Part shown: positions 2,065 through 62,571 of the stretch, piece by piece
Layout: the number at the start of each line of letters is the position of its first letter
Position numbering within the stretch: position 1 is the stretch's first letter
NCBI RefSeq assembly: GCF_000482505.1
Contig: NZ_AXVL01000017.1
Span: 1 to 64,000 of the forward strand
Length of the DNA: 64,000 nt
Reading direction: 5' to 3'
DNA from: Leptotrichia trevisanii DSM 22070
GTDB taxonomy: Bacteria; Fusobacteriota; Fusobacteriia; Fusobacteriales; Leptotrichiaceae
Notes under the pieces: model-generated
Database searches by the model: none
Told to the model about the DNA's origin: nothing
Seen by the model: only the letters and a program-made list of their open reading frames with translations
Made by a program: the position numbers and the translations under genes

Positions 2065-2290
2065 ATTATTCCTCCCTTCGCTTTATTAATACTAAACCTT
2101 ATTTAAAAAATAGAAATAAAATTCTATAATAATTAATTTGATAACCTTATTAAAAAAATTAAATCTAATTTTTAAGTATCCATATAAGGGATTCCTATTC
2201 AAAATTTGAAAAATCTCTTATTGTTAATAAATATTTTTCACAATTCTGATTTCTACTATTTAAATGGGAAATAGTATTAGATTATTTTGT

Positions 2291-54902: not shown

Positions 54903-55044
54903 ATTCAAACTCCGTTTTTTCTATTATTATACACTTTTTTTTGATTTTATTCAACATATTAAATAAATTTATTTAAATTTATAATAAATTTAATCAAGAA
55001 CTGAGTTTAAATATTTAAGTTTATTTATCAATATTTTATTTTTA

Positions 55045-55899
55045 TTAACCTTTTAATATTATTATTTCTGTTTCCAGCTTTACTCCAAATTTTTCAAAGA
55101 CAACTTCCTTTACATGTTCAATAACGGAAATAACATCATTAAAAGTGGCATTTCCTAAATTTGTTATAAAGTTTGGATGTTTTGGTGAAACTGCCACATC
55201 TCCAACTCTATATCCCTTTAAATCAGCATCAGAAATAAGTCTTGCCGCAAATGTCCCTTTCGGATTTTTGAATGTACTTCCTAAATTAGGTAAATCTAAT
55301 GGATGTTTTACTTTTCTCTGTTCTCTTTTATCATCTGAAGCAGCCTTGTCAAACCCAAATCCAAATTTGAAAAGGGCAGAAATTACAATCCATTTATTTT
55401 CCTTGATTTCGGTAGTTCTATATTTAAAGTTCAAGTCTGTTGTCTTAATTTTTACAATTTCTCCATCATTTTTACAAACTTCCACTTCTTCAATACAATC
55501 AAAAATCTCTGTCCCGTAAGCTCCACCATTCATATTTACAAGCCCACCAACAGATCCTGGAATACCAGTAATATTCTCTAACCCTGTATAATTATTTTTT
55601 TCCATAAAATCTATTAGATCATTCAAATCCAGTCCAGCTTCCACTCTTATCAAATCATAATCGCCTTTTTTTTCTTCAACTGTTATATTTTTTAATCTTT
55701 TTAATGATAAAAAACTTATATCTAAATTTCCATCATTAATAAGAGTATTTGTTCCATTTCCTAAAAGAAAAATGTTATTTCTAGTTTGTAAAACTTCTTT
55801 TAATTCATTTTTATCATCTATGAAAATAAGCTCTTTTGCAGTTCCGCCAACTTTCATATTTGAATATTCCTTCATCTTGGCATTTTTTATTATTTCCAT
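55045..55899 (-). CDS. murB: UDP-N-acetylenolpyruvoylglucosamine reductase
   Basis: 284-aa FAD enzyme making UDP-MurNAc. FAD-binding motifs FLLGNGTNTLINDG and GIPGSVGGLVNMNGGAYGTE; the catalytic Ser is in NLGSTFKNPKG; the late Glu is in GVKLETEIIIL. This is the short type II/III form. Between murC and ftsQ. Confidence 0.96.
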   Translation of the reverse strand: MEIIKNAKMKEYSNMKVGGTAKELIFIDDKNELKEVLQTRNNIFLLGNGTNTLINDGNLDISFLSLKRLKNITVEEKKGDYDLIRVEAGLDLNDLIDFMEKNNYTGLENITGIPGSVGGLVNMNGGAYGTEIFDCIEEVEVCKNDGEIVKIKTTDLNFKYRTTEIKENKWIVISALFKFGFGFDKAASDDKREQRKVKHPLDLPNLGSTFKNPKGTFAARLISDADLKGYRVGDVAVSPKHPNFITNLGNATFNDVISVIEHVKEVVFEKFGVKLETEIIILKG

Positions 55900-59651: not shown

Positions 59652-61031
59652 TTATTTTCCTATAATTTTTTGTGTCAATTCCTTAAATACTTTTCCCCTA
59701 TGTTCAAAACTCTTAAATTGGCAAAAACTAGATGTCGCAGGTGAAAACAGCACTGTCTGATTTTGGGAAAAATCCACATTTTCCTTCAAATAATTCAATA
59801 CATTTTCAACCGTTTCCAAATTCTTATAATTCTTATACCCAATTTTTTCCATATCATCTATCAAAAGCTGAGCATTATCCCCAATCAGATAAACAAAGTC
59901 AACTTTCTCCTTAACTCTTTCAATCAGAGGCATATTATCAATTTTCTTGTCATCTCCGCCTAAAATCATAATAATCGAATTATTAAACGAATCAATAGCC
60001 TTTAATGTCGATTCCACATTTGTCCCCTTAGAATCATTAATAAACGTTGTATTCCCTTTTACAAAAAAGTTTTCAAGCCTATGCTCCAACGCATTTGTTG
60101 ATTTCAAAAATTCAATCAGCTTTTTATTTTCCACATTTAATATTTTCGCCGAACTTATCAAAAATAACATATTTTCCAAATTATGTCTACCCTTTAATGA
60201 TAATTCTTCCGTTTTCATCAAAATTTCTGAAACTTCATCAATTTTTTCACCAAAATTCTGAACTTCGTCAATTCGTTTATTCAAATCCTTCATTATACGA
60301 ATATCATTTTCATAAACAAAAACTGTTCCCTTTGTCTCTGTACTCAAATACACCTTTTGAGCCTTTATTTTCTCTTTTATCTCATTTCTTTCATACAACT
60401 TCGCAAAAACTTCATCATCCAGATTAATCAGCGCAAAATCATTTTCTGTCTGCTTATTAAAAATCGCAAACTTTGTAATATAGTAATCTTCCACCGTATC
60501 ATACCGTGTCAGATGATCAGGTGTCAAATTAATTATCCCGGCGATATTTGAATGAATCTGCGGATTATTTTCCAATTGGTAGCTGCTAAGCTCCAGCACA
60601 ACATAATCCAGTTCTTCCTCATCAGCCACCAGTTTTGCAAATGAAAAACCTGCATTCCCGGCAAGTTTCGCACGAAATCCAGCAAAATTAAGTAATTCAG
60701 CCATTTTAGTAGATGTTGTAGTTTTCCCGTTTGTCCCAGTAAATGAAATAATCTTTATATTTTTATCCACATATTTATAAGCCAAATCAATTTCTGAAAT
60801 AATCTTAACATCCTTTTCCTTCGCAACTTTCAAAAGCTCCGCCTTCCAAGGAATCCCTGGACTTTTCACAACAAATTCAATTTTTTCTTCATTCAAAATC
60901 CTAACTCCCTCTTCTGACGACATTGCAACCTTATCATCTATCAAATATACTTCATATCCATTTTTTTCCAGCAGTTCCTTCGCACCAAGTCCACTTAACC
61001 CAGCACCAAATACAATTCCCTTTTTATCCAT
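59652..61031 (-). CDS. murD: UDP-N-acetylmuramoylalanine--D-glutamate ligase
   Basis: 459 aa. Rossmann start GIVFGAGLSGLGAKELLEKN, ATP loop SFTGTNGKTTTSTKMAELLN, ELSSYQLENNPQIHSNIAGI, NLTPDHLTRYDTVEDYY and INDSKGTNVESTLKAI. Adds D-Glu. It lies after the MITE-like insertion that separates it from mraY. Confidence 0.97.
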   Translation of the reverse strand: MDKKGIVFGAGLSGLGAKELLEKNGYEVYLIDDKVAMSSEEGVRILNEEKIEFVVKSPGIPWKAELLKVAKEKDVKIISEIDLAYKYVDKNIKIISFTGTNGKTTTSTKMAELLNFAGFRAKLAGNAGFSFAKLVADEEELDYVVLELSSYQLENNPQIHSNIAGIINLTPDHLTRYDTVEDYYITKFAIFNKQTENDFALINLDDEVFAKLYERNEIKEKIKAQKVYLSTETKGTVFVYENDIRIMKDLNKRIDEVQNFGEKIDEVSEILMKTEELSLKGRHNLENMLFLISSAKILNVENKKLIEFLKSTNALEHRLENFFVKGNTTFINDSKGTNVESTLKAIDSFNNSIIMILGGDDKKIDNMPLIERVKEKVDFVYLIGDNAQLLIDDMEKIGYKNYKNLETVENVLNYLKENVDFSQNQTVLFSPATSSFCQFKSFEHRGKVFKELTQKIIGK

Positions 61032-61081
61032 GTGATTTTTTCCTCTCTTTTTTATACAATTTTATAAATGTTAATTAATCC

Positions 61082-61284
61082 TAAGTATTTAACTAAGTAG
61101 TTTTTCTATTTTAAAGATGTTTATTAATAACTATTTTTTATTATATATTTTAATTTTTTTAACGTAAGGGTATCAGACGCCATGCCCTTACAATTTTGCT
61201 TAGTAATATTAAAATAACTTTTGTAATTAAAATTAAAAGTGTCGTGATTTTTTGAAAATAAAAAATAGCTTAGTTGAATACTTA
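61082..61284. mobile_element. MITE-like element between mraY and murD
   Basis: Terminal inverted repeats TAAGTATTTAACTAAG (61082-61097) and CTTAGTTGAATACTTA (61269-61284) match at 15 of 16 positions. Similarity continues inward as T-rich sequence for about 15 nt. The 203-bp segment has no open frame and contains a GC-rich inverted repeat GTAAGGG/CCCTTAC (61164-61170 with 61185-61191). It breaks an otherwise compact dcw cluster. No target-site duplication was confirmed. Confidence 0.55.
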
Positions 61285-61363
61285 AAAAATAAATTTATTA
61301 TATTCTTATTTACAATTTCATTTTTTATGAAATAATAAATAAAAACATAATTTTAATTAGTTT

Positions 61364-61383
61364 GCAGGGGAAAAATCCCCTGC
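61364..61383 (-). repeat. GC-rich palindrome after mraY
   Basis: GCAGGGGA-AAAA-TCCCCTGC, a perfect 8-bp GC-rich stem with a 4-nt loop, 9 nt after the mraY stop. The minus-strand U-tract is absent. It could be a 3' stabilising hairpin or a weak terminator. Confidence 0.65.
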
Positions 61384-61391
61384 TTTATTAT

Positions 61392-62480
61392 TTATCTTAA
61401 TTTCAAAATTACAAATGTTAATAGACATGTCATTATTGAAACAATCCAGAATCTTATTGTAACTTTTGTTTCAGGAAGTCCTAGTAGTTCAAAGTGATGG
61501 TGAATTGGGGCCATCTTGAATACCCGTTTTCCAAAAGTTTTAAAATGCCAGACTTGAATCATAACTGACAAGGCCTCCATAATAAATATAAATCCAGCAA
61601 TTGGCAATAATAATTCCTGTTTTATGAAAATAACGATAATTCCTAAAATTCCTCCCAGTGTCAGAGAGCCAGTATCTCCCATAAATACTTGCGCCGGATA
61701 AAAATTGTACCATAAAAAACCAATTAACGCACCTATTACCGAAGCTAGATAAACTGTTATTTCTGATACTTCTGGAATATGATACAGATTTAAATATTTT
61801 GCATAATTATGGTGTCCTGTCAAATATGTTATTATAAGAAGCGTAATACTTACCACAATTATTGGCCCACTCACAAGTCCGTCCAGTCCATCCGTCAAAT
61901 TTACCGCATTTGAAGAGCCGATTATTACAAATGACACAAAAATAAAAAACAGGACTGGTGTTATGTATATATACGAATTTTTTATTAACGGATTTATTAT
62001 CGAAAAATCAATTGTCTTATTAACAAGTCCAAATTTATACACAAAGCCAAATGTTAATGCTGTGATTATAAGTTGTCCCAATATTTTTTTCTTTCCAGAA
62101 AGTCCACTTTTATGTCTTGTTAATTTCAGGTAATCATCATAAAATCCAATTGTTGTAAATAAAATTGTAATTACAAACAGAAATACAATAAATTTATTTG
62201 TAAAGTTGCCAGCAACTGCTGTTGCAAATAAAATTGCTCCAATTATTAGAAGCCCTCCCATTGTAGGTGTTCCCGACTTGTCAAAATGCGATTTAGGCCC
62301 TTCCTCCCTTGCCGTATCTCCATATTTTTTCTTTTTAAGCCAGGCAATGAACGGTTTCCCTAAAATTAACATAAACAAAAACGCAATCATAAACGCCACA
62401 GACGCTCTTAGCATTATTGATTTAAAAATACGTAAAACTCTCCAGTTATTTATAAATAACTCTTGCAGTAAATATAACAT
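61392..62480 (-). CDS. mraY: Phospho-N-acetylmuramoyl-pentapeptide transferase MraY
   Basis: 362 aa, ten membrane helices; makes lipid I on undecaprenyl phosphate. KSHFDKSGTPTMGGLLII, NLTDGLDGLVSGPI, VFMGDTGSLTLGG, and MAPIHHHFELLGLPETKVTI are canonical. Between murF and the insertion. Confidence 0.97.
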   Translation of the reverse strand: MLYLLQELFINNWRVLRIFKSIMLRASVAFMIAFLFMLILGKPFIAWLKKKKYGDTAREEGPKSHFDKSGTPTMGGLLIIGAILFATAVAGNFTNKFIVFLFVITILFTTIGFYDDYLKLTRHKSGLSGKKKILGQLIITALTFGFVYKFGLVNKTIDFSIINPLIKNSYIYITPVLFFIFVSFVIIGSSNAVNLTDGLDGLVSGPIIVVSITLLIITYLTGHHNYAKYLNLYHIPEVSEITVYLASVIGALIGFLWYNFYPAQVFMGDTGSLTLGGILGIIVIFIKQELLLPIAGFIFIMEALSVMIQVWHFKTFGKRVFKMAPIHHHFELLGLPETKVTIRFWIVSIMTCLLTFVILKLR

Positions 62481-62571
62481 TCTTTATTATAGAATTTTTT
62501 TACTCATAATCCATACTCAAACAAATTATATAACAATAAAAAAACTCTTCTCCTTTCTTTGTTTAAAATAT

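Follow-up and report, generated by a model that had tools for sequence, protein, structure and literature searches.

In Leptotrichia trevisanii DSM 22070, the minus-strand dcw genes mraY and murD are separated by 360 bp, of which 203 bp form a block with inverted repeats at its ends (Table 1). We analysed this block in the 64,000-nt stretch of DNA that surrounds it (hereafter the window) and in the genome to which the window belongs, G000, one of 13 genomes of the genus that were compared (G000–G012). The initial annotation had described a non-coding block that separates the two genes and has 16-bp ends identical at 15 positions, and we recovered it at exactly the same coordinates: the best 16-base inverted match within 61000–61400 (80% AT) is a 15/16 match at 61082–61097/61269–61284, a value reached by 1 of 60 dinucleotide shuffles of that stretch, and no open reading frame (ORF) of ≥80 aa overlaps the block. 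The weaker inward similarity that had been noted corresponds to arms that reach 34 nt at 76% complementarity, and the central GC-rich inverted repeat is a hairpin, GTAAGGGTAT–CAGACGCC–ATGCCCTTAC. Folding of 61060–61310 as RNA gave a z score of −3.3 (200 shuffles). A terminator-like match at the hairpin runs antisense to the dcw genes, no T run follows the hairpin on the dcw strand and approximately 50 nt remain between the block end and the murD start. A further GC-rich hairpin (GCAGGGG...CCCCTGC) lies directly after mraY and is kept in all 10 closer genomes with the spacer read; its T run occurs solely on the non-dcw strand.

Table 1 Features of the mraY–murD region and family-related stretches elsewhere in the window
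Feature	Position	Strand	Remarks
mraY	61392..62480	-	stop at 61392
murD	59652..61031	-	start at 61031
Family copy, 203 bp	61082..61284	.	ends TAAGTATTTAACTAAG and, inverted, TAAGTATTCAACTAAG
Left terminal inverted repeat arm, 34 nt, 76% complementary to right arm	61082..61115	+	diverged matches at other copies
Right terminal inverted repeat arm	61251..61284	-	arm comparison
A unit: AT-rich stretch and hairpin, common to other copies	61123..61193	+	module mapping
Hairpin, 10-bp stem; 8-nt constant loop CAGACGCC at 61174–61181	61164..61191	+	
M stretch and start of C module	61207..61263	+	B, rest of C and Cend missing in window copy
GC-rich hairpin directly after mraY	61364..61383		
Second family copy in window, core-less; outer TACTA...TAGTA inverted repeat, one inner end, no hairpin core	2089..2277	+	
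AT-rich stretch, weak outer-repeat consensus match	54947..55067	both	E 3e-6, 8e-6

A dispersed family in Leptotrichia

The search of the genome for other copies that had been proposed for this block was positive. A 251-bp query matched 48 stretches in the window genome, a number that includes the query itself and in many cases counts a single copy as two pieces, and it had matches in each of the 13 Leptotrichia genomes, at 2 to 53 stretches per genome. When a fuller copy was compared with 96 genomes from the order, each of the 13 genus members matched strongly, with a best E no higher than 4e-17. Matches with E of 0.001 or better also occurred in 57 of the 83 genomes outside the genus; given that none was better than 1.2e-7, these are read as AT-rich background. 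A search of the species collection with the hairpin pattern, which may omit records near the window genome, returned 22 stretches, distributed over Leptotrichia sp. oral taxon 879 (n = 13), L. hongkongensis (n = 7) and GC-rich metagenome-assembled genome (MAG) DNA (n = 2). We rejected the last two as family members (Syntrophaceae and Rhodanobacter MAGs; GC-rich DNA, with the surrounding element missing), as well as the single match of the pattern to a viral contig, in GC-rich DNA unlike the element. Plasmid records gave no match to the window element, and Rfam covariance-model searches returned nothing for 60000–62500 (up to E 1) or for seven loci with other copies. On the basis of the order-wide genome search and the hairpin-pattern search, the family appears to be restricted to Leptotrichia as far as searched.

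The copies are intergenic in the main: for 31 of 34 with neighbours read, overlap with large ORFs is ≤30 bp, and the neighbouring ORFs are co-directional at 25 copies, divergent at 6 and convergent at 3. Four further stretches (L026, L027, L146 and L177) belong to a sister repeat that has a similar AT-rich end (TTAATAAATATTTTTTC) but a different hairpin (GGATTGCTCATTGCCGCAAATCC), as well as CGACGGAGC...CTAGCCATAGG modules; it takes the place of the family element in G009 at the site orthologous to C10:57518. At L021 on G000:C71, a family copy is truncated, and immediately to its right lies an apparent insertion-sequence start with its own reading frame.

Modular anatomy and paired stems

In the window genome, module consensus strings mapped onto 40 merged stretches revealed the arrangement A–B–M–C–Cend. 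The optional, nested modules are D and F, placed at the A hairpin and at Cend, respectively, together with E and G. Cend and C read backwards have the layout of A and B; a complete copy therefore consists of two inverted units. Such copies are long fold-back elements with a hairpin in each unit, and one of 601 nt folded into a single long stem (z −7.6, 20 shuffles). The window copy is internally deleted, retaining A, M, the start of C and one hairpin. Short core-less copies with TACTA ends were also considered as pre-insertion shells, a reading that we rejected because their junctions lie at differing short repeats, as deletions would leave.

The hairpin loop is near-constant (CARWCGCC; mostly CARACGCC in A units and mostly CARTCGCC in C units), and, read on the same strand, the two loops of one copy complement each other at 7 of their 8 positions (CAGACGCC versus GGCGACTG). 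The stems vary yet stay paired: mean pairing was 0.868 among 53 distinct hairpins (from 110 rows, pre-filtered for pairing), compared with ≤0.750 in 1,000 redeals of the 3′ arms, and all four Watson–Crick types are present at stem pair 3. An unfiltered check of 27 distinct CAGWCGCCAT sites found good pairing at 22; the other five lie in L058, L091, L096, L099 and L100, and the last four of these stretches carry no family module. Across copies, this stem covariation shows that the family is under selection or of common descent; it does not show use at mraY–murD.

Terminal repeats and a probable link to IS630

The family has two end types, TACTAAACCCC and TAAGTATTCA. The exact pattern TAAGTAYTYAACTAAR gave 11 hits in the 13 genomes, 10 of them at the mraY–murD site, and diverged versions of the same ends are found elsewhere. 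Among 100 other hairpin units (purged of identical 50-mers only, with orthologues remaining), an upstream match to the window end at ≥17 of 25 positions was present in 42 (shuffled mean, 10.2; maximum, 18; 50 shuffles) and at ≥19 of 25 positions in 10 (shuffled mean, 0.28; maximum, 2). The best matches lie mostly 89–111 nt upstream of the loop, compared with 92 nt in the window copy. Because end matches recur at the expected spacing in other copies, the ends of the window block are, judging from sequence comparison, the ends of the family in diverged form; the idea that the 16-bp ends are purely locus-specific was dropped once these diverged versions had been found.

Young copies carry a second inverted repeat further out (TA-CTAAACCCC; TACTAAACCCC.TTTAAA), which matches the ends of approximately 1.1-kb IS630-family insertion sequences in G011 (L184) and G006 (L186). 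Against the model NF033545 (cut-off 100), the two ORFs of L184 scored 123.5 bits, above the cut-off, and 75.6 bits, below it. The window copy has the inner end type only (TAAGTAT...), for which no insertion sequence bearing that end was found, and its own link to IS630 would be indirect. Of DDE_3, the window genome has only one short fragment. TA is present at both element ends, a clean empty site that would define a duplication was not found, and a target-site duplication was shown at no site examined. The AT-rich stretch at 54947–55067 that weakly matches the outer-repeat consensus is possibly an old relic or a chance match.

An intergenic, multi-copy repeat built of inverted hairpin pairs could also be of the REP/BIME type or derived from IS200/IS605, moved by a hairpin-recognising Y1 (HUH) transposase. 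We consider this origin highly improbable, given that the long terminal inverted repeats do not fit it and that no Y1_Tnp domain (PF01797) is present in the window genome, the same search being positive in 5 of 14 control genomes.

The mraY–murD site across the genus

We took the mraY loci from all 13 genomes. The site is filled in six: G000 (203 bp), G003 (339 bp), G005 (616 bp, containing a run of N), G007 (372 bp), G009 (308 bp) and G011 (321 bp). In G002, G004 and G012 there is an imperfect palindrome alone; it resembles the family ends and therefore reads as a terminal-repeat scar. The remaining four are element-free: G006, G008 and G010 have short diverged spacers with no element visible, and in G001 the element is absent and the spacer shorter, which could reflect a larger deletion rather than a never-occupied site. 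The distance between the murD start and a fixed anchor close to the end of mraY is 377 bp in the window genome, 199–210 bp in the three scarred relatives and 161–164 bp in two distant ones. The initial annotation had suggested a non-autonomous, MITE-like element, as opposed to a sequence unique in its genome and conserved at this place in distant species, and had pointed to empty sites in relatives as a test. Copies are many, their shared ends are diverged, occupancy varies among relatives and the sequence is not kept at mraY–murD in distant species, all of which bears that suggestion out. Its further proposal, that the block may carry a promoter or terminator affecting the downstream murD–ftsZ genes, gained no support from the analysis, in which the sole terminator-like match at the hairpin ran antisense to these genes.

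The block might have been domesticated, its hairpin and outer stem acting in the mraY–murD transcript as a processing site or attenuator and being kept for that reason. The family-wide constant loop and covarying stem, together with a fold of the whole block that is better than that of shuffles, are compatible with such a role; nevertheless, it seems improbable for an element that is scarred or missing in 7 of 13 genomes, that varies in orientation and content where the site is filled, that has no T run 3′ of the hairpin on the dcw strand and whose covariation across copies points to family-wide selection or common descent rather than use at this site.

Both orientations occur at the site. The A arm faces murD in G000, G003 and G007 and faces mraY in G005 and G009; G011 has its C unit towards murD. 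Locus-specific arm sequences travel with orientation: the left arm of G000 is closest to the right arm of G005 and the left arm of G003, and the left arms of G005 and G009 are closest to the right arm of G007. The flanks of the element are a mosaic between species, and between-species exchange may therefore contribute. Rather than one old insertion that flipped, the site could be a hot spot, in which family elements entered a pre-existing palindrome in separate events in several species and in either orientation. The palindrome kept in the three core-less genomes and the quite different elements that fill the same gap at other orthologous sites would be expected in that case; against this, the arm sequences that move with orientation lie inside the terminal repeat, and the palindrome resembles the family's own ends. 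We therefore regard independent hits as unlikely, with a chance still worth weighing.

Occupancy and reversal at other sites

To read orthologous sites, we looked up flanks in G009, G002, G003 and G004 and took 15 surrounding stretches per genome. Pairings through the repeat alone, several of those with L131, L162, L110 and L105 among them, do not indicate orthology and were left out; the rows for C3_17484 contain L131 and L162, and this site was judged from G009 alone. Most sites are occupied in several species, by elements of varying length. Most copies, lying at the same places in several species, are therefore old, and direct evidence of movement comes from a few young copies. The orthologous sites of these are element-free in G009, G002 and G003 (C71:88487), in G002 (C70:115716), in G002 and G004 (C5:68049), in G009 (C2:36036) and in G004 (C3:18658, where the gap holds 155 bp of other sequence).

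A second locus (G000:C19:21036–21324) is filled in G000, G007, G011 and G012, shows a single end in G002 and G004, and is empty in the other 7 of 13 genomes. Here the copies of G007 and G011/G012 are reversed relative to each other, with 91.8% identity over 243 bp on opposite strands, compared with 75.8–89.0% for those copies within the best 12 rows that come from other sites. The unit order is opposite in at least one relative at 8 of the 11 sites readable in both the window genome and at least one relative (C3_70791 being read from the loop letter alone, and a twelfth site, C70_84670, being unreadable in the relative). Inversion is indistinguishable from replacement save at mraY–murD and the second locus, because the relative's element is clearly different at several sites. 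Reversal was observed between species only.

These patterns would also accommodate an invertible, self-complementary family whose loops and stems are selected as single-stranded DNA or RNA (protein-bound or kissing) and whose structure drives reversal and module exchange in place; the elements would then be switchable intergenic structures and not mere relics. We put this forward as a doubtful, speculative reading.

Origin of the block and comparison with known repeats

The block is very probably an old, internally deleted copy of a transposase-less, inverted-repeat MITE family restricted to Leptotrichia, with a proposed IS630-type spread followed by decay and flipping. The elements are short and without a transposase gene (203–616 bp at mraY–murD), share diverged terminal inverted repeats, exist as many dispersed copies and have filled and unfilled sites. 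The MITE reading holds because this dispersal, the shared ends and the variable occupancy are joined by scars made of the ends, both orientations at one site, modular deletion and, on young copies, an outer repeat that matches the ends of an IS630-family insertion sequence. We infer that the family spread in trans through an IS630-type transposase at TA sites, that fixed copies would decay through deletion between short repeats, and that the long inverted arms may allow copies to be flipped or exchanged by recombination or template switching. The mraY–murD transcript most likely continues through the block, which folds on itself and ends before murD; because of this read-through, a regulatory role at this site is most likely not needed.

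Several bacterial repeats are comparable. RUP of Streptococcus pneumoniae, proposed in PMC3049150 to be mobilised by IS630-Spn1, is likewise a small, AT-rich, intergenic inverted-repeat element with ends like those of an IS630-type insertion sequence; the Leptotrichia family differs in its greater length and its modular build (two inverted hairpin units plus nested modules), and we liken the two without claiming sequence kinship. BOX of S. pneumoniae (boxA–boxB–boxC), as presented in the same source, is also composite, with modules variable in number and choice, and structured if transcribed, whereas the Leptotrichia modules form two inverted units with nested insertions instead of a tandem array, in another host and with another sequence. 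Correia elements of Neisseria resemble the family as intergenic MITEs within transcripts whose terminal repeats pair in RNA, and RNase III cleaves them at these repeats (PMC10969869); their sequence and core are unrelated to the Leptotrichia family as far as seen, and RNase III processing is a Correia feature. Leptotrichia buccalis was among the 50 genomes of a survey that classed 250 motifs as mobile/repeat sequence candidates (MRSC; PMC11109978), which share with the family multiple copies, structure, covariation and inconsistent orientation; the Leptotrichia family may be among them. In the accessible text of PMC8040213, Leptotrichia is named solely for candidate ToxN-linked RNAs. The titles and abstracts found in literature searches on Leptotrichia repeats, MITEs, IS630 and transposases, or on Fusobacterium MITEs, do not describe the family, and the supplementary motif list of PMC11109978 could include it. 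The family is thus of a known kind, a MITE, with no earlier description in the literature searched and a prior listing in those supplements possible.

The analysis identifies a repeat family for a genus of oral bacteria, and the element explains the differing spacing of the dcw cluster between Leptotrichia species. Its sites—filled in both orientations, scarred and empty—form a natural series for studying fold-back inversion, shrinkage and module exchange in place. Of greater interest than the single block is the family itself, whose elements are modular, fold back on themselves and flip.
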